The notes beneath the pieces are model-generated. The model was given only the letters and a program-made list of their open reading frames with translations, was not told the DNA's origin and ran no database searches. The position numbers and the translations under genes are program-made. From IMG/VR virus record IMGVR_UViG_3300001533_001524, positions 1 to 22,875 of that record: a stretch of DNA of 22,875 nucleotides. One strand, written 5' to 3'. This document shows, one piece after another, positions 6,612 to 21,329 of the stretch; positions within the stretch are counted from its first letter, which is position 1; each line of letters begins with the position of its first letter. Source of the stretch: a virus.

Positions 6612-6859
6612 AAATTAGTAAATTCATAGCAATACTTATCTTGTTTGTAGTTATAATGAATTCAATACTTACATGGCAAGCTAATATAAAACGTAGAAAA
6701 GCGATCAAAAGGATGCAAATTCAATTGGTTGAACTTTCACAACTTTCTTTTACTAATGGTTGGTTACTTGGGTCTCAATTTTCTTTTTTTAATGATTCAA
6801 TTAGTTGGGAAAAACAATTAGAAAAAGATAGTATTAATTTTGCAAAAAGGTTTGAGTAA
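6608..6859 (+). CDS. Small membrane-anchored protein (83 aa)
   Basis: The start overlaps the upstream stop (ATGA). Residues about 4-24 form one hydrophobic segment (FIAILILFVVIMNSIL), followed by a basic patch NIKRRKAIKRMQ, which places the rest in the cytoplasm by the positive-inside rule. A helical C-terminal domain follows. It could be a membrane anchor for phage machinery, as spanin-like or superinfection-exclusion proteins are, but nothing in the sequence settles this. It overlaps the exonuclease gene by 1 nt (TAATG). Confidence 0.55.
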   Translation: MKISKFIAILILFVVIMNSILTWQANIKRRKAIKRMQIQLVELSQLSFTNGWLLGSQFSFFNDSISWEKQLEKDSINFAKRFE

Positions 6860-8067
6860 TGTCAGGATTTTTCACAGTTAAAGAAACACAATCACAACAC
6901 CGGCCAGGTGGTAAAGTGTTATCATGTCATAGCTGCGGTTTATACCGTAAAGCTAATTCACCTAAAATGAAACCTTTTGGAAACTTTAAAAAAGGGATTA
7001 TGAACATAGGTAGTGTGCCTGATACTATCGATGATGAAAAAGGTAAACAATGGCAGGGAGCATCTGGTAAATATCTGAAAAACATTTACAATAAATTAGG
7101 TGTGGATTTGTTTGAAGATTGTGTAAACTTAAATGCTATTAATTGTTATTCTGGAAAACTGCCTAAACCATTTGAAATTGATTGTTGCAGAAGAATAGTG
7201 TTAAATGCAATAGAGCAGTACAAACCTAAAGTGATTATCCTGTTTGGCGATTACCCACTTAAATCAATTATAGGTAACCGGTGGAAAGATTCACTTGATG
7301 GAATTGTAAAGTGGCGTGGGTGGACTATACCAGATCAGGATTTAAAAACGTGGGTTTGTCCTACTTTAAATCCTACTTATGTAATGCGAATGGAAAAGAA
7401 TAGGGGGGTTGAACGTGTATTGATTGAAGATTTGGAAAGGGCTTTTTCCAAAGTGAACGAGCCTTTTCCTTATTTTAAAGAACCTGAAATTATTACACTT
7501 GAAAATGATTTGAGTGTACTCGATACAATTCCACCATTAAGTATAGTTGCTTTTGATTATGAAACCACAGGATTAAAACCTCATGCAAAAAGTCACCGAA
7601 TAGTTTCTGCTTCGGTTGCAGTAAATGAAAACAAAGTGTATGTTTTCTTAATCCCAAACAAAGCAAAGGATAGAGAGCCTTTAAAAAGATTGTTGAAAAA
7701 TAAACTTATTAAAAAGATAGCTCAGAATATGAAGTATGAATTAGCATGGAGCAGGGAAATTCTTAAAACTACTGTAAGGAATTGGCATTGGGATACTATG
7801 CTGGCTACTCATGTACTTGATAATAGAAAAGGAGTAACAGGATTGAAGTTTCAGGCATACGTGCAGTTTGGTATTGTAAATTATAACAGTACCGTTGACA
7901 AGGCTTTAAAAGCACCTGAGAGCAACAATCTAAACAGTATTATGGAATTCATTAAGAAACCTAAAAACAGGGCTGAAATGCTTAAATACAATGCTCTGGA
8001 CAGTATTTTTACATACCGGTTATTTTTATTACAGCAGGAAAAGTTTAATTCACTATTACCTTTTTGA
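6859..8067 (+). CDS. UDG-like domain fused to DnaQ/PolA-type 3'-5' exonuclease
   Basis: Two domains in 402 residues. Residues about 15-195 resemble family 4/5 uracil-DNA glycosylases: C23-x2-C26, the NxxxC segment around C96, and C109/C110 fit the four [4Fe-4S] ligands. The active-site block is altered: the usual GEAPG appears as GSVPD (51-55) and the HP motif as NP (171-172). Residues about 225-395 are a DEDDy proofreading exonuclease: Exo I DYET (D233, E235), Exo II QNMKYE (N290, E294), DTML (D312), Exo III Y377-x3-D381. This is the proofreading half of a phage PolA whose polymerase half is the separate gene at 8538. UDG-exo-pol fusions in one chain are known in phages. Whether the UDG part is catalytic is doubtful; it may only bind DNA. 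Confidence 0.82.
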   Translation: MSGFFTVKETQSQHRPGGKVLSCHSCGLYRKANSPKMKPFGNFKKGIMNIGSVPDTIDDEKGKQWQGASGKYLKNIYNKLGVDLFEDCVNLNAINCYSGKLPKPFEIDCCRRIVLNAIEQYKPKVIILFGDYPLKSIIGNRWKDSLDGIVKWRGWTIPDQDLKTWVCPTLNPTYVMRMEKNRGVERVLIEDLERAFSKVNEPFPYFKEPEIITLENDLSVLDTIPPLSIVAFDYETTGLKPHAKSHRIVSASVAVNENKVYVFLIPNKAKDREPLKRLLKNKLIKKIAQNMKYELAWSREILKTTVRNWHWDTMLATHVLDNRKGVTGLKFQAYVQFGIVNYNSTVDKALKAPESNNLNSIMEFIKKPKNRAEMLKYNALDSIFTYRLFLLQQEKFNSLLPF

Positions 8068-10578: not shown

Positions 10579-12540
10579 ATGATCTATCAGAAGCATCGTC
10601 CAAAAACATTTGATGAAGTAAAAGGAAACAGGGATGTAGTGGCAGCATTAAAAGCAATGTTAAAAACACCTGAAACAATGCCTCATTCCTTTTTATTTCA
10701 TGGCCCAACAGGTACGGCCAAAACAACCTTAGCAAGAATTGTAGCTAATGAATTAGGTTGTAGTGAAAACAACATCATTGAAATTGATACAGCGCAGTTT
10801 AGAGGGATTGATACTATTCGTGATTTACGAAAAAACATTCAGTACACACCTTTAGGTGGTGGTAAACGTGTTTATATAATTGATGAATGTTTTGTTAAAG
10901 GTACAAAAATTAAATTAAGCAATGGAAATAGCAAATCAATAGAAGATGTTTCAGTGGGTGATTCTGTTTGTAATTTAACTGGAAATGGAAAAGTAACAAA
11001 CACTTTTGTAAATAAAGTAGATTTACAAAGAGTTGTAAAAGTTACTCTTTCAAATAAACAAACAATCACGTGCTCATGTGACCATTTGTTTTATACTAAT
11101 AAAGGATGGGTTAAAGCAAAAAACCTTGAAAATTGTTTTGTGTATTCTAATATTAGTTGTAATTTTGTGGGTAACATTAAATTAGAAAAAACACAAAAGT
11201 ATGAAAACAGAAATGAGACCTTGCCCTATCTGCAAAACACTGTTTGTTTATTACTTGAACAGAACAGCAAAAAACAACAAGAAAGTTTGCAGCAGGAAAT
11301 GTGCGGATATATACAATGCACAGAACAGAGTAGGGAAAAAATGGAAAAAAGAATCCCGACTAAAATTATCACAATCCAGAAGAACGCTTTTAATGGAAAC
11401 AGAGAGGGGAGAGCAAATACGCAAAACACATTCCCTTCGTATGCAAATAAAAAACCCAGCAAAGAATCCAAAGACAATCCAAAAAGCAAAACAAACAAAA
11501 AGGATAAATGGAACATTGCATATTTGGAAAGGAACAAGGGGGGGCAATGGGAAATTAACACAACCACAAATACTTTTAGCAACAGCTTTAGGTTGGGAAA
11601 TGGAATTTCCAATAAAAACAGGACACAACCAAAAAGATTTGTCTGGATTTCCTACTTGTTACAAAGTAGATTTGGGGCAGCCGAATTTAAAAATAGCGAT
11701 AGAAGTAGATGGCAAATTACACAATTGGAAGCAACAGAAATTAAAAGACTTAAAAAAAGAAAAAAAGTTAAAAGAATTGGGGTGGAGAGTGTTGCGTTTT
11801 ACAAACAAGGAAATAATGACAGATATTTCAAAAGTGTTATTGGTGATAAAGAAAGAAATCAAGGGTTTGTAGAATTATATGATTTTGAAGTAGATTCCCA
11901 TCCTTCTTATTTTGCAAATGGAGTTTTAGTACATAACTGTCACAAAATTACAAGTGATGCTCAAAACGCTTTTTTAAAGATACTTGAGGATACACCGAAA
12001 CACATTTACTTTATCCTTTGTACAACTGATCCACAAAGTTTATTACCTACTGTAAAAGGAAGGTGTAGTCAGTTTCAAACAAGTGTATTAACTGATAAGG
12101 TAATGGGGGAATTGTTATCTGAGGTTGCAGAAAAAGAAGGGGTTACACTTGATGAAAAACTAATAGAAACCATTACAGAAAGCAGTCAGGGACACCCACG
12201 CAACGCTTTAACCATACTTGAACAAGTATTGCAAGTACCTGAAAAAAGGCGTTTAAGGGCTGCTAAAAAAGCCTCTGAGGAAAAGTCTGAAAGTATTGCA
12301 CTGTGCAGGGCTTTAATGTACAGGAAAAGCTGGAAAGAAGTTTCAGCTATATTAAAGGGTTTAAAAGGACAAGACCCTGAAAGCATCCGGAGAGTAGTTT
12401 TAGGTTATGCAACAAGTGTACTGTTAAACAAAGATGATGGGAATGCTTTTGCAATCCTTGAATGTTTTGAAGACCCCACGTATAACATCGGATTTCCAGG
12501 AATTGTGCTTGCGTGTCAAAGAGTTTTAAATTACGAATAA
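10579..12540 (+). CDS. dnaX: Clamp loader ATPase (DnaX/RFC-like) precursor containing an intein
   Basis: The 653-residue precursor would give a 303-residue mature AAA+ clamp loader after removal of a 350-residue intein. N-extein (1-103): MIYQKHRPKTFDEVKG is the classic DnaX start, with Walker A GPTGTAKTT (42-50). The intein splits the Walker B/DExH motif after YIIDE; the C-extein resumes at C454 with CHKITSDAQNAFLKILED, then sensor 1 (FILCTTDP), KGRCSQF and sensor 2 GHPRNAL. Joined, the motif reads IIDECHK, which fits DnaX. The zinc-binding CxxC module of bacterial DnaX is absent. It opens and loads the clamp at 3915. Splicing is required for ATP hydrolysis, because the intein lies in the catalytic motif. 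Start is ATG at 10579. Confidence 0.92.
   Translation: MIYQKHRPKTFDEVKGNRDVVAALKAMLKTPETMPHSFLFHGPTGTAKTTLARIVANELGCSENNIIEIDTAQFRGIDTIRDLRKNIQYTPLGGGKRVYIIDECFVKGTKIKLSNGNSKSIEDVSVGDSVCNLTGNGKVTNTFVNKVDLQRVVKVTLSNKQTITCSCDHLFYTNKGWVKAKNLENCFVYSNISCNFVGNIKLEKTQKYENRNETLPYLQNTVCLLLEQNSKKQQESLQQEMCGYIQCTEQSREKMEKRIPTKIITIQKNAFNGNREGRANTQNTFPSYANKKPSKESKDNPKSKTNKKDKWNIAYLERNKGGQWEINTTTNTFSNSFRLGNGISNKNRTQPKRFVWISYLLQSRFGAAEFKNSDRSRWQITQLEATEIKRLKKRKKVKRIGVESVAFYKQGNNDRYFKSVIGDKERNQGFVELYDFEVDSHPSYFANGVLVHNCHKITSDAQNAFLKILEDTPKHIYFILCTTDPQSLLPTVKGRCSQFQTSVLTDKVMGELLSEVAEKEGVTLDEKLIETITESSQGHPRNALTILEQVLQVPEKRRLRAAKKASEEKSESIALCRALMYRKSWKEVSAILKGLKGQDPESIRRVVLGYATSVLLNKDDGNAFAILECFEDPTYNIGFPGIVLACQRVLNYE
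10888..11937 (+). mobile_element. Intein in clamp loader Walker B motif (350 aa)
   Basis: Block A begins with Cys1 (CFVKGTKIKLSNG). GDSVCNLTGNG follows, then block B ITCSCDHLFYTNKGW with H66 as the catalytic His; the usual TxxH Thr appears as Ser63. Blocks F and G (YDFEVDSHPSYFANGVLVHN, residues 331-350) end in His349-Asn350 and are followed by the +1 Cys of the extein. All residues needed for splicing are present. The splicing parts are about residues 1-100 and 328-350. The part between is not a normal in-frame endonuclease: in the intein frame it is a polar Lys/Asn/Gln-rich chain, while the +1 frame encodes the endonuclease at 11201. The target, a highly conserved replication ATPase motif, is typical for inteins. 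Confidence 0.93.
11201..11872 (+). CDS. Homing endonuclease (Vsr/EDxHD-like) nested out of frame inside the intein
   Basis: A 223-residue protein in the frame one base ahead of the intein. It has its own ATG at 11201 behind an A-rich leader (AAAACACAAAAGT), like other starts here, and its own TAG at 11870-11872. N-terminus: a zinc-finger-like C8-x2-C11...C30-x3-C34. Next comes a NUMOD3-like DNA-binding stretch (GKKWKKESRLKLSQSRR, 45-61). The C-terminal nuclease domain (about 150-215) is Vsr/DUF559-like: KVDLG (D157), IAIEVDGKLH (E168, D170, H174), then ELGWRVLRFTNKEI. The order agrees with EDxHD-type homing endonucleases, first known from fractured genes with split inteins. It would cut intein-less clamp-loader genes so that the intein is copied in. 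Confidence 0.87.
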   Translation: MKTEMRPCPICKTLFVYYLNRTAKNNKKVCSRKCADIYNAQNRVGKKWKKESRLKLSQSRRTLLMETERGEQIRKTHSLRMQIKNPAKNPKTIQKAKQTKRINGTLHIWKGTRGGNGKLTQPQILLATALGWEMEFPIKTGHNQKDLSGFPTCYKVDLGQPNLKIAIEVDGKLHNWKQQKLKDLKKEKKLKELGWRVLRFTNKEIMTDISKVLLVIKKEIKGL

Positions 12541-17713: not shown

Positions 17714-17714
17714 A

Positions 17715-17746
17715 TTTGGAAAGTATAAAATAATACCTTAATTTTG
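17715..17746 (+). promoter_or_regulatory. Strong Bacteroidetes-type promoter upstream of the structured RNA
   Basis: TTTG (17715-17718), 20 nt, then TAATTTTG (17739-17746). Every fixed base of the TTTG/TAnnTTTG consensus is present; it is the best promoter in the window. It starts right after the stop at 17713. Transcription should begin near 17751-17753, which is exactly where the first RNA helix begins. Confidence 0.72.
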
Positions 17747-17750
17747 TTCG

Positions 17751-18175
17751 TATGATATACGTGGTTTTAAATATAAGATTTTTTAGTTCTATTTCTTTAT
17801 TGAAGGGAATAACGTGTATCATAGATAAGCCTGTTTGCATTTTTGCAGATGGGCTTATTGCATTTAAAAATTTATCATTAAGGTTATGTTCGATATCTTT
17901 CCTTGCAATATTCGGATTCGCTAAAAAGATGGGAGCTTTCGCACACCGTTACAAACTCGTAAAAGTTTCTGCTCTGGTGAACACTTCCAACAGAAGACCT
18001 GATGTGTTGAGTTATCATGTAATGTGCTTAGGGATGGTTTTGTGTGTATGTAAGGCTTGTATCAGTAACGAAGATAAGGATAGATAATCCTATATTATCT
18101 ATTCCTCTAAAGCTGGTAAATCCACTGATTCCATAGTATCAGGGATAGAAAGTGTTTTGGTTAAAATTTAATTTT
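17751..18175 (+). ncRNA. Structured RNA of unknown class (about 425 nt)
   Basis: This 470-nt gap (17714-18183) has no credible gene but a chain of strong helices. Found by hand: 17751-17762 with 17812-17823 (12 bp, one wobble), enclosing 17791-17798 with 17803-17810 (8 bp, loop ATTG); 17825-17839 with 17844-17858 (15 bp, loop TTTT, three wobbles); 17953-17957 with 17964-17968; long-range CGTTAC 17947-17952 with GTAACG 18065-18070, closing a multibranch domain; 18078-18088 with 18094-18105 (11 bp, one bulge). The helix nearest the promoter begins at the expected transcription start. A T8 run at 18172-18179 may mark the end. No tmRNA, RNase P, 6S or group I intron signatures were seen. It could be a free RNA or a very long leader of the sbcC gene at 18184. 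The 3' boundary is uncertain. Confidence 0.72.
18078..18149 (+). promoter_or_regulatory. Competing helices at the 3' end of the RNA (possible switch)
   Basis: TCTATTCC (18098-18105) can pair with GGATAGATAAT just upstream (18078-18088) as part of an 11-bp hairpin. It can instead pair with GGGATAGA downstream (18142-18149; 8 bp, one G-U). The two pairings exclude each other, as in attenuators and riboswitches. This is a structural observation; no ligand or signal is known. Confidence 0.4.
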
Positions 18176-18183
18176 TTTTGAAT

Positions 18184-19224
18184 ATGATTAACAAAATTTC
18201 GATACAAAATTTTCAATCCCATAAAAATACTGAATTGCATTTTGACAAAAGTGTAAATGTAATCATCGGTAGTAGTGATAGTGGAAAAACAGCAATCATC
18301 AGAGCTTTACGATGGTTAATGTGGAACAAACCTGGTGGTGATTCTTTTCGTAGTTATTGGGGTGGGGATACGGTTGTATCTGCTAAAATAGACAAAACTG
18401 TTATTAGCAGAAGCAAAGGTAATTCTAATCTTTATGAGGTTGATGATACTCCATTTACAGGTTTTGGTACAAACGTACCCGATGAAATCCAAAAGGTTTT
18501 TAACATTTCAGAAATTAATCTTCAACAACAGCTTGATACACCGTTTCTTTTAACTGAAAGTCCGGGCAATGTAGCAAAGCATTTTAACAAAATTGCTAAA
18601 CTCGATAAAATTGATACTGCTACAAGTGAACTTAAAAGAAAGATTAATTCTATCAACACTACAATACGTGTAAAAGAGGAAAAGCTAAACAGCTATCAGG
18701 AAACTTTATCCACTTTTCCAGACCTTGATTTAGTTGAGGTTAAACTTGAGGATATTGAGGATTTAGAAATTAAACGAAACACTTTATCCAAAGATATTAG
18801 TTCATTAACACGGTTAATTGACAACATTAAAATAGTTAGGGAAAAGATTGAAGTGGTTCAATCAGAATTAATCTATGAAGATAAAATTAATAAATTAATT
18901 GAATCTGTAAATCAACGTGAACAGAAAAAACAGAAAGCTAATTCTTTACTTTCTATTTTAAATTCTATTGAAACTTTAGAACAGGAAATTACTGAAAAAG
19001 AAAAATTAACTGGTTTAGAAAGCAAGGTTAACAGTCTTATTGAATTAACAGGGGTTAAACGTACCAAATTAACCGTTGTAAACGCTTTAACTGTTTTAGT
19101 AGGTAAAGTGCTTACTATTGAAACAAAGTTGCTTAAAACGCAGGAAAATGTTTCTGTATTAAAGGAAAAATTTCATAAAGAAATGGGTGCAGTGTGTGTT
19201 TTGTGTGGAAGTAAATTAAAATAA
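18184..19224 (+). CDS. sbcC: N-terminal half of SbcC/Rad50-like ATPase, ending in a zinc hook
   Basis: ATG at 18184 is preferred to TTG 18178. The N-terminus MINKISIQNFQSH and P-loop GSSDSGKT (29-36) are typical of SbcC/Rad50; the Q-loop region (NLQQQLDTPFLL) lies near 112-123. A long coiled coil (about 140-330) follows. The protein stops right after CVLC (C338-x2-C341), the zinc-hook signature, with only GSKLK behind it. A whole Rad50 would continue into a returning coil and a second ATPase half; that half is the separate gene at 20718. Together with SbcD (19358) they would form a DNA-end-processing complex. The RNA at 17751 lies directly upstream. Confidence 0.88.
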   Translation: MINKISIQNFQSHKNTELHFDKSVNVIIGSSDSGKTAIIRALRWLMWNKPGGDSFRSYWGGDTVVSAKIDKTVISRSKGNSNLYEVDDTPFTGFGTNVPDEIQKVFNISEINLQQQLDTPFLLTESPGNVAKHFNKIAKLDKIDTATSELKRKINSINTTIRVKEEKLNSYQETLSTFPDLDLVEVKLEDIEDLEIKRNTLSKDISSLTRLIDNIKIVREKIEVVQSELIYEDKINKLIESVNQREQKKQKANSLLSILNSIETLEQEITEKEKLTGLESKVNSLIELTGVKRTKLTVVNALTVLVGKVLTIETKLLKTQENVSVLKEKFHKEMGAVCVLCGSKLK

Positions 19225-19230
19225 AACTAA

Positions 19231-19392
19231 ATGGAAAAGTTTAACAATTTTTTACGTAAGTATGAATGTGCAACAGAGGATTTATGTGATACGTGCTACT
19301 GGTCAAATGGGGAAATGTGTATCCGGCAATTATTAACTAAAGAAGAAATTAAAGAACATGAAGAAAAACATAAAGCAAGCAAAAAATCCTGA
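19231..19392 (+). CDS. Small cysteine-rich (zinc-binding) protein (53 aa)
   Basis: Seven nt after the sbcC N-half stop. It has four cysteines, C13-x5-C19-x2-C22-x7-C30, in a compact block (CATEDLCDTCYWSNGEMC) that would suit a zinc site, followed by a charged helix LTKEEIKEHEEKHKASKKS. Its 3' end overlaps the SbcD start by 35 nt. It sits between the zinc-hook half of Rad50 and SbcD, so it may belong to that complex. No family recognised. Confidence 0.6.
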   Translation: MEKFNNFLRKYECATEDLCDTCYWSNGEMCIRQLLTKEEIKEHEEKHKASKKS

Positions 19393-20227
19393 TGCTATTC
19401 TTTGTAGTGATTTTCATTTACGTGAGGATACTCCAATTTGCAGAACAGATGATTTTTGGGAAGCACAATGGAAAAAAGTAGATTTTGTTTCTGAATTGCA
19501 AAAGAAACACAATTGTCCGGTATTTCATGCAGGGGATTTGTTTCATCATTGGAAACCCTCGCCTTATTTACTTTCCAAAACAATCGAGCATTTACCTGAT
19601 GATTTTTATACTGTTTACGGCAATCACGATTTACCACAACATAGTATAGAATTAAAAGAAAAGAGTGGGATTTACACTTTGTGGCAAGCTAAAGCATTAA
19701 AAATATTTCAACAGGGGCATTGGAATAGTTTACCTGATGATATAAGTTGTGAAATAAAAGGAAAACAAGTTTACGTTTGGCATGAATTTGTTTATACAGG
19801 TAAAGAACTTTTTCCGGGGGCAGAAGGAAGAGCAAGGTCTATCATGGAAAAATATAAACAGTTTGATTTAATTGTAACCGGCGATAATCATCAGAGTTTT
19901 GTTTATCCTTTAGATGGCAGGTTGTTAGTTAATCCCGGTTCACTAATGAGGCAGGAAGCAGGGCAAATAGATTTTAAACCTTCTGTTTATTTGTGGTTTG
20001 CAAAGGATAATTCAGTTGAAAGGGTTTATTTACCAATTGATGAAAACGTAGTTTCCCGTGAACACATTATAAAAGTAGAAGAAAGGGATGAACGAATGGA
20101 TGCTTTTATCAGTAAATTAAATGATGATATACAAACAACATTAAGTTTTGAGGAAAACATTAAAAGATTTTTGGCTAAGAACCGAATGAGAAAACCAGTT
20201 AAAGATATAATAAACAGTGTACTTTAA
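19358..20227 (+). CDS. sbcD: SbcD/Mre11-like nuclease
   Basis: A calcineurin-type metallophosphoesterase of 289 residues. Metal-ligand motifs in order: SDFH (D18, H20), HAGD (D60), GNHD (N89-D91), VWHEF (H142) and GDNH (175-178; the usual GHxH first His is replaced by Asp). NPGS follows at about 192-195. This is the Mre11/SbcD core; the C-terminal capping and Rad50-binding helices are short (about 235-289). It would cut DNA ends and hairpins together with the split SbcC. The start overlaps the small cysteine-rich gene in another frame. The replacement in the last motif also occurs in some phage enzymes as I recall, but its effect here is unknown. Confidence 0.85.
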   Translation: MKKNIKQAKNPDAILCSDFHLREDTPICRTDDFWEAQWKKVDFVSELQKKHNCPVFHAGDLFHHWKPSPYLLSKTIEHLPDDFYTVYGNHDLPQHSIELKEKSGIYTLWQAKALKIFQQGHWNSLPDDISCEIKGKQVYVWHEFVYTGKELFPGAEGRARSIMEKYKQFDLIVTGDNHQSFVYPLDGRLLVNPGSLMRQEAGQIDFKPSVYLWFAKDNSVERVYLPIDENVVSREHIIKVEERDERMDAFISKLNDDIQTTLSFEENIKRFLAKNRMRKPVKDIINSVL

Positions 20228-20240
20228 AACTAATTTAAAA

Positions 20241-20483
20241 ATGAGAACAAGAAAAATGAGACAAGAAAGTTTTCCGTTAAGGACAGAGATTGAAAATGAT
20301 GTAGTAGCTTTTAACAATGTGTTAAAACGTGGAATCAAATGTATGCCGTTGTATGAGTTACTATGCAACTGCCATCCTCTTTATCGTGCTGATTATGCAC
20401 GTAAACTTCAAAAAGAAGACCGTATAAGTGAAACTGTAATGAAAGAATTTACATCAAAACAACCGTTACACGAAACAATTTAG
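20241..20483 (+). CDS. Small hypothetical protein (80 aa)
   Basis: ATG at 20241 is preferred to GTG 20217, which overlaps sbcD. The protein has a basic N-terminus MRTRKMRQ and a helical body with several cysteines (IKCMPLYELLCNCHPL), and it ends TSKQPLHETI. It is one of two small genes between SbcD and the C-half of Rad50. No family recognised. Confidence 0.55.
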   Translation: MRTRKMRQESFPLRTEIENDVVAFNNVLKRGIKCMPLYELLCNCHPLYRADYARKLQKEDRISETVMKEFTSKQPLHETI

Positions 20484-20485
20484 TT

Positions 20486-20728
20486 ATGAAAGAACAAGAA
20501 TTATTTGAATTAAAAGAGGAAATTGAAGAATCTAAACAAGAGTTAGCTGAACTGAAAGGTGAAAAACAAGCATTGATGAAAAGGTTAATTGAGGAATGGG
20601 GCTGTAAAACAACCAAAGCAGCCAGAAAAACACTTGATGAAATGAAAACTGAATTGGAAACAATCACTTCTAATATTAACAGTGGTTTAGAAGAACTTGA
20701 ATTAATGCTTGAATCGAATGGAAACTAA
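20486..20728 (+). CDS. Coiled-coil protein between sbcD and the Rad50 C-half (80 aa)
   Basis: Nearly the whole sequence is heptad-repeat coiled coil rich in Glu, Lys and Leu (FELKEEIEESKQELAELKGE near residues 6-25), with one Cys at about 40. It starts 2 nt after the previous stop and overlaps the 20718 gene. The C-half of Rad50 has a much shorter coil (about 65 residues) than the N-half (about 190). So this protein could supply part of the missing return coil, or pair with it; that is inference. Confidence 0.65.
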   Translation: MKEQELFELKEEIEESKQELAELKGEKQALMKRLIEEWGCKTTKAARKTLDEMKTELETITSNINSGLEELELMLESNGN

Positions 20729-21329
20729 AACCGTCAGGGCTAAATTAGAACGTTTTAAAGGGGCTAAAGAATCAGTAATGAAAAACATTAGCTCTACCGG
20801 CAAAGAGCTTGCAGAGGTGCGTAAAAGCCTTAAATACCATGAACAGGCAAAAGAAGTGATTAAGCAGGTGGGTTTAGCTACCCAACAGCAATTACAATAT
20901 CACATCAGCGATATTACAACACTTGCACTTGAAAGTATTTTTGACAACGCTTATAAGTTAGAAGCTGAATTTGTTGAACGAAGGGATAAAACAGAATGTG
21001 ATTTGATGTTTGTACGTGATGGGGAGTATTTAGACCCCATCACTGCAAGCGGTGGGGGTGCAGTTGATGTGGCTTCTTTTGCTTTACGAATTGCAAGCTG
21101 GAGTATGGAATACCCACGTTTACGAAATGTGATTATCCTTGATGAACCTATGCGTTTTCTTAGTGAAGATTTACAGGAAAAAGCAAGTAAAATGATTAAA
21201 GAATTATCCGATAAGTTAGGAATCCAATTTTTGTTAATCACGCATGAGCAAGAATTAACTACTTATGCAGATAAAGTATTTGAAGTAAGAATTAAAAAAG
21301 GAATTAGTAAAGTAATTGAAAAACAATAA
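20718..21329 (+). CDS. sbcC: C-terminal half of SbcC/Rad50-like ATPase
   Basis: ATG at 20718 is preferred to TTG 20709. After a coil (about 1-65) come the ABC signature SGGGAVD (111-117), Walker B VIILDEP (138-144), the D-loop region MRFLSED and the switch His in LLITHEQE (H176). These are the second-half elements of SbcC/Rad50; no P-loop and no zinc hook are present. It must combine with the 18184 product, which brings Walker A and the hook, to form an ATPase site. Splitting at the hook keeps each half a natural folding unit. The genes are separated by about 1.5 kb holding SbcD and three small genes, so a recent single frameshift is excluded. Confidence 0.87.
   Translation: METKTVRAKLERFKGAKESVMKNISSTGKELAEVRKSLKYHEQAKEVIKQVGLATQQQLQYHISDITTLALESIFDNAYKLEAEFVERRDKTECDLMFVRDGEYLDPITASGGGAVDVASFALRIASWSMEYPRLRNVIILDEPMRFLSEDLQEKASKMIKELSDKLGIQFLLITHEQELTTYADKVFEVRIKKGISKVIEKQ

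Follow-up and report, generated by a model that had tools for sequence, protein, structure and literature searches.

Genomic context

The DNA analyzed, referred to as the window, is a linear virus record from IMG/VR with a length of 22,875 bases. Based on Pfam and PHROGs matches across the whole window, the encoded proteins form a replication and recombination module: a DnaB-like ATPase, an adenine methyltransferase, a sliding-clamp-like protein, a UDG/exonuclease fusion, PolA, a clamp loader with an intein, RecA, RuvC, and SbcC-like and SbcD-like proteins. The same module was present in many IMG/VR contigs, in which identity to the SbcD-like protein reached about 58%. Three of these relatives sit in bins named Bacteroidota, Bacteroidetes, or Bacteroidales, and the host is therefore most likely a Bacteroidota bacterium. 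Bacteroidota phages are abundant and little studied, and the RNAs described from them are few.

The module also shows some unusual gene arrangements. A single ORF at 6859-8067 (+) combines a uracil-DNA-glycosylase-like domain with a 3'-5' exonuclease domain in one fusion; the PolA polymerase domain has its own ORF downstream. At 18184-21329 (+), the SbcC-like protein is divided into separate N- and C-terminal genes with an SbcD-like phosphoesterase gene between them, and this order (SbcC N-part, SbcD-like phosphoesterase, SbcC C-part) is common to the relatives.

A 470-nt non-coding gap

The phage fragment is densely coded. After gene assignment, the largest unassigned interval of the 22.9 kb was 17714-18183 (470 nt); the runner-up was 156 nt, leaving this interval as the sole non-coding gap longer than 160 nt. 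It begins immediately after the stop codon that ends the 17432-17713 gene and reaches to the SbcC-like start codon at 18184. Two reading frames are relevant here:

17752-18087, + strand: ORF of 111 codons, not regarded as a gene (coding score -0.15 bits/codon; no Pfam or PHROGs match)
18184-19224, + strand: SbcC-like ATPase, N-terminal part (PF13476, PHROG 77, PHROG 16465), which opens the SbcC/SbcD-like block

The score of the 111-codon ORF was the lowest in a comparison with 38 genes, nearly all of which scored positive, and the remaining frames of the gap also scored negative. None of the six read-through frames of the gap matched a Pfam or PHROGs family, and a back-translated search with the ORF found no relative in IMG/VR or GTDB genomes. 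A preliminary description of this DNA had placed a region of about 425 nt between two coding blocks and had discounted the ORF as a protein gene, and both statements were borne out. The gap is non-coding, as supported by each of these measures.

Promoter and candidate 3' end

Three features mark the ends of the gap:

17715-17746, + strand: Bacteroidota-type (sigma-ABfr) promoter, TTTG-N20-TAATTTTG, an exact consensus match
17750-17753, + strand: expected transcription start, predicted from the -7 element and coinciding with the base of the first helix
18172-18179, + strand: T8, a candidate 3' end and the only 8-T run on the + strand of the window

The Bacteroides promoter consensus comprises a -7 element, TAnnTTTG, and a TTTG near -33 (PMC7366714). 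The site at 17715-17746 is of this type and not of the sigma-70 type. By itself, the motif is weak evidence, because five consensus sites with spacers of 16-22 were observed in the window against 2.7 expected. The gap had earlier been said to lie behind the best promoter in the window; the consensus match stands, but the superlative does not, since the window contains four exact sites at spacing 17-23, this one included, and three of them lie on the + strand. Between 17747 and the window's end, no further exact promoter was found on the + strand; the SbcC-like block would therefore need either this promoter or read-through from upstream.

The placement of the two end features is less easily obtained by chance. 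When the gap was shuffled 20,000 times with dinucleotides preserved, a promoter with the full consensus fell within the first 20 nt in 0.15% of shuffles and a T8 within the last 25 nt in 0.66%, while both together occurred in none, figures which serve as a guide only because the features were picked after inspection. T8 lies 11 nt past the last stable hairpin, and for this reason it is not a textbook terminator; a terminator scan of the 3' end also found no canonical one. The SbcC-like start codon follows 4 nt after T8, and the region upstream of it is the most U-rich among all genes of the window. T8 and this U-rich region are more in keeping with the 3' end of an RNA than with a site for ribosome binding.

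Predicted fold

The + strand of the gap was predicted to fold into the following elements:

17752-17822, + strand: domain I, an 11-bp helix (17752-17762/17812-17822) around two AU-rich hairpins; an inverted repeat
17824-17859, + strand: UUUU-loop hairpin of 16 bp (17824-17839/17844-17859) with four G-U pairs; pair probability 0.97
17892-18063, + strand: domain II, a branched core of about 170 nt with two closing helices and two inner arms
17947-17952, + strand: CGTTAC, 5' half of a possible pseudoknot, complementary to 18065-18070
18065-18070, + strand: GTAACG, 3' half of the possible pseudoknot, complementary to 17947-17952
18077-18106, + strand: 12-bp hairpin interrupted by one bulge; the inner 8 bp have a pair probability of 0.97 and the outer 4 bp of 0.58
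18107-18160, + strand: 3' hairpin of 7 bp, an internal loop, and 9 bp with one bulge; pair probability 0.88-0.99

The helix that closes domain I had a pair probability of 0.97 and its inner hairpins 0.70 and 0.47; the closing helices of domain II had 0.77 (17892-17896/18059-18063) and 0.89 (17901-17907/18049-18055). The multi-helix structure of the preliminary description is predicted here too, and the + strand helices that it listed were recovered with small corrections: its 12-bp helix at the predicted 5' end is 11 bp long, and its 15-bp TTTT-loop hairpin is 16 bp long. Helices of at least 16 bp arose in 5 of 400 shuffles. The long-range CGTTAC/GTAACG pairing fared less well. The complementarity exists, but this 6-bp loop-to-linker pairing is absent from the predicted fold, has a chance of about 3% per such loop/linker pair, and competes with an alternative in which 18068-18072 pairs with 17747-17751 (P 0.40); it is weak as evidence.

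The + strand folded better than its shuffles, with z-scores of about -2.7 to -3.0 across three estimates (-2.7, with 2 of 100 shuffles; -2.8; and -3.0, with 2 of 400). Its fold energy was -106.9 kcal/mol versus -70.3 kcal/mol for the reverse strand (z -1.1), a difference matched in 18 of 400 shuffles. Tiles across the window had a mean z of -0.8 (SD 1.3), and one coding tile reached -4.1 and another -3.0. Folding alone is thus suggestive only, because a few coding tiles attain an equal or lower z.

Searches for known families and homologues

Nothing in the stretch reached the gathering threshold of any family in Rfam 15, and a permissive threshold gave sub-threshold matches attributable to chance. 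The top one, BSnc120, scored 22.5 bits against a cut-off of 114 and was also taken as chance. The Rfam models for GOLLD, ROOL, OLE, RNase P, tmRNA, 6S, and introns had no match, in agreement with the earlier statement that the region lacks the hallmarks of tmRNA, RNase P RNA, 6S RNA, and group I introns. Group I and II introns, OMEGA RNA, retrons, and tmRNA were each considered and set aside, as no model matched and no partner gene was seen. The 22.9-kb window, which may be an incomplete fragment, contained no tRNA or tmRNA.

Sequence comparison with phage and plasmid collections (blastn against INPHARED and PLSDB) returned short chance pieces only, as did blastn against the whole records of 49 relatives, where again only short pieces matched. 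Exact 16-18-mers gave 0, 10, 8, and 18 matches in IMG/VR, none of them similar beyond the pattern. Among about 150 loci from relatives, nhmmer detected no homologue of the element; its best match (locus L018, E 0.029) lies inside an apparent HNH/endonuclease VII-type gene and was taken as chance, and PF02945 had no match in the window. Antisense matches of the element to the rest of the window were at most 20 nt long and AT-rich.

Single-sequence covariance models of the core (R1) and the 3' domain recovered, among the relatives, only the window itself. In 395 Bacteroidota genomes, these models gave one 24-bit match, which had many broken pairs and was taken as chance, and in 395 genomes from a single class they gave none. 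A blastn search of 395 genomes gave four short matches to different pieces of the element, one of them an apparent terminator hairpin like that at 17824-17859. Overall, no homologue was found in IMG/VR, INPHARED, PLSDB, the sampled Bacteroidota genomes, or the roughly 150 lineage loci, a result to be read with the points that E-values of single-sequence models are rough, that the nearest relatives are distant, and that records very close to the window possibly fall outside the searched set. A fast-evolving homologue could exist in a closer, unsampled phage.

The same slot in relatives

Across about 150 loci from this phage lineage, the position ahead of the SbcC-like gene is occupied by protein genes or consists of just a few bases. 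One of these loci, L002, is an example: its upstream ORF stops 11 bases ahead of the SbcC-like start. The relatives retain the operon of SbcN, phosphoesterase, and SbcC C-terminal part without such a leader. Their long gaps showed no similarity to that of the window, and the gaps upstream of SbcN are mostly protein-coding. The element thus appears to be absent from the orthologous operon in relatives, and a leader private to this phage would still fit.

One relative has a long gap of its own. The IMG/VR contig that is also the source of L002 contains, at L016:18102-18583, an interval of 482 nt that lacks ORFs of 50 codons; this gap has a z of -4.7 against mononucleotide shuffles and is dissimilar to the element of the window.

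A putative stand-alone RNA and its alternatives

The reading we prefer, with a probability of roughly 0.4, is that the gap is a small RNA gene, predicted to encode a non-coding RNA of about 425-430 nt which most likely acts in trans. Transcription by the main RNA polymerase of the host would begin near 17750, driven by the promoter at 17715-17746, and the non-coding transcript, about 425-430 nt long, would end at T8 (about 18172-18179). The fold of the RNA would comprise a double domain at the 5' end, a branched core, and a pair of 3' hairpins. The RNA would most likely serve in trans as a structured partner that binds a protein or nucleic acid of the phage or the host during the replication/recombination phase, whose genes flank it. 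Some transcripts probably continue into the SbcC-like operon. We infer all three of transcription, the 3' end at T8, and action in trans.

We favor this reading because the only gap above 160 nt carries a promoter and a T8 at its ends (0/20,000 shuffles), because the expected start meets the base of the 11-bp helix, and because the + strand has a z of about -3 versus -1.1 for the reverse, with no coding signal and no Rfam family. Counted against it are the lack of a homologue, the roughly 150 lineage loci without the element, the overlap of its z with those of coding tiles, and the lack of a textbook terminator. The simplest account would be that a cassette of promoter, structured RNA, and U-run was gained by this phage or evolved too fast to trace.

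It is also possible, if less probable, that the SbcC/SbcD-like operon from 18184 has this structure as a long leader at its 5' end, which controls the operon in cis, for example by ending transcripts at T8 before the start codon versus letting them continue, or by folding over the start region. Such a leader would explain the anatomy of the element almost as well: the SbcC-like start codon is only 4 nt past T8, and over 33 nt the 16-bp hairpin shares 91% identity with what appears to be a host terminator hairpin (in one Bacteroidota genome). The leader reading stays close because there is no other exact promoter downstream. However, relatives hold the same operon without it, no riboswitch or leader family was matched, and 430 nt is long for a leader. 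We lean slightly toward the stand-alone RNA over the operon leader because of T8 and because the SbcC-like gene has an unusual, U-rich start region. The element is plausibly an RNA confined to this phage, either stand-alone or a leader.

We consider it unlikely that the gap has no functional RNA and consists of recently acquired or decayed AT-rich DNA with chance hairpins and a chance promoter. The element is private to this phage, phage DNA is AT-rich, equal or better folding is seen in a few further tiles, and the promoter consensus is only modestly in excess (5 versus 2.7). On the other hand, the phages of this lineage are so packed that a 470-nt non-coding stretch is conspicuous, the promoter and T8 are placed at its two ends, and its six read-through frames hold no remnant of any protein family.

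A DNA element that works through its hairpins, for example an origin of replication or a site of recombination, is very improbable. The gap is set among replication and recombination genes and its AT-rich flanks carry inverted repeats, but the strand bias of the fold favors RNA over a DNA cruciform, in which G-U pairs (28 of the 136 in the + strand fold) would be disfavored; in addition, the direct repeats amount to three short two-copy families and form no iteron array. Least probable is a small protein gene of 111 codons, whose open frame with an ATG at 17752 scores below every gene of the window, begins at the very start of the expected transcript, and has no match in Pfam, PHROGs, IMG/VR, or genomes.

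Comparison with known systems

Judged from its sequence, the element resembles an orphan intergenic phage RNA. Like GOLLD and ROOL, it is phage-encoded, intergenic, and non-coding, with several predicted helices. GOLLD and ROOL are larger (GOLLD often >800 nt), usually lie near tRNA arrays, and have covariation support and solved cage structures (PMC12286853); in contrast, the window element is about 430 nt long, has no tRNA in the window, matches neither Rfam model, and is a single sequence. Intergenic Bacteroides sRNAs such as GibS have a start site and a 3' end as the only marks of the gene (PMC7366714), and the element shares their promoter type, with the exact consensus at 17715-17746. 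It differs from them in being phage-borne, about 430 nt long, devoid of a canonical terminator, and known from sequence alone. The layout of promoter, leader, and operon with a T run ahead of the start codon also recalls structured 5' leaders and riboswitches, although no such family matched and the same operon in relatives is without the element.

The preliminary description had suggested a further large phage RNA. The non-coding region, the promoter in front, the fold, the absence of a known family, and a T8 at the far end agree with this, whereas a new class does not follow, as there is no second example. Such a claim needs at least one. No homologue turned up in the collections searched, and with none there is no covariation or conservation. 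We regard as somewhat doubtful the proposal of an undescribed class, namely a multi-domain Bacteroidota-phage RNA of about 430 nt with its own promoter in the recombination block, acting in trans and represented by one sample. The present worth of the element is that of a lead from a single sequence without relatives, rather than an established RNA class. A 430-nt non-coding cassette kept where free space is nearly absent would be a good candidate for a protein-binding phage RNA.

A clamp-loader intein

A separate feature of the window concerns the clamp-loader gene at 10579-12540 (+), which contains an intein at about 10888-11937 (Intein_splicing PF14890). Inside the intein, in a different frame, lies a 223-aa ORF at 11201-11872 (+) that encodes a nuclease domain of the DUF559 (Vsr-like) type (E 5e-12). 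Just ahead of this nuclease ORF, at 11137-11167, the Bacteroidota promoter consensus is matched exactly (TTTG-N19-TAATTTTG), and the tile over the start of this ORF (11181-11610, +) has the lowest folding z in the window, -4.1. This arrangement looks like a clamp-loader intein whose homing endonuclease is encoded out of frame and has a promoter of its own, and it may be at least as interesting as the orphan RNA.
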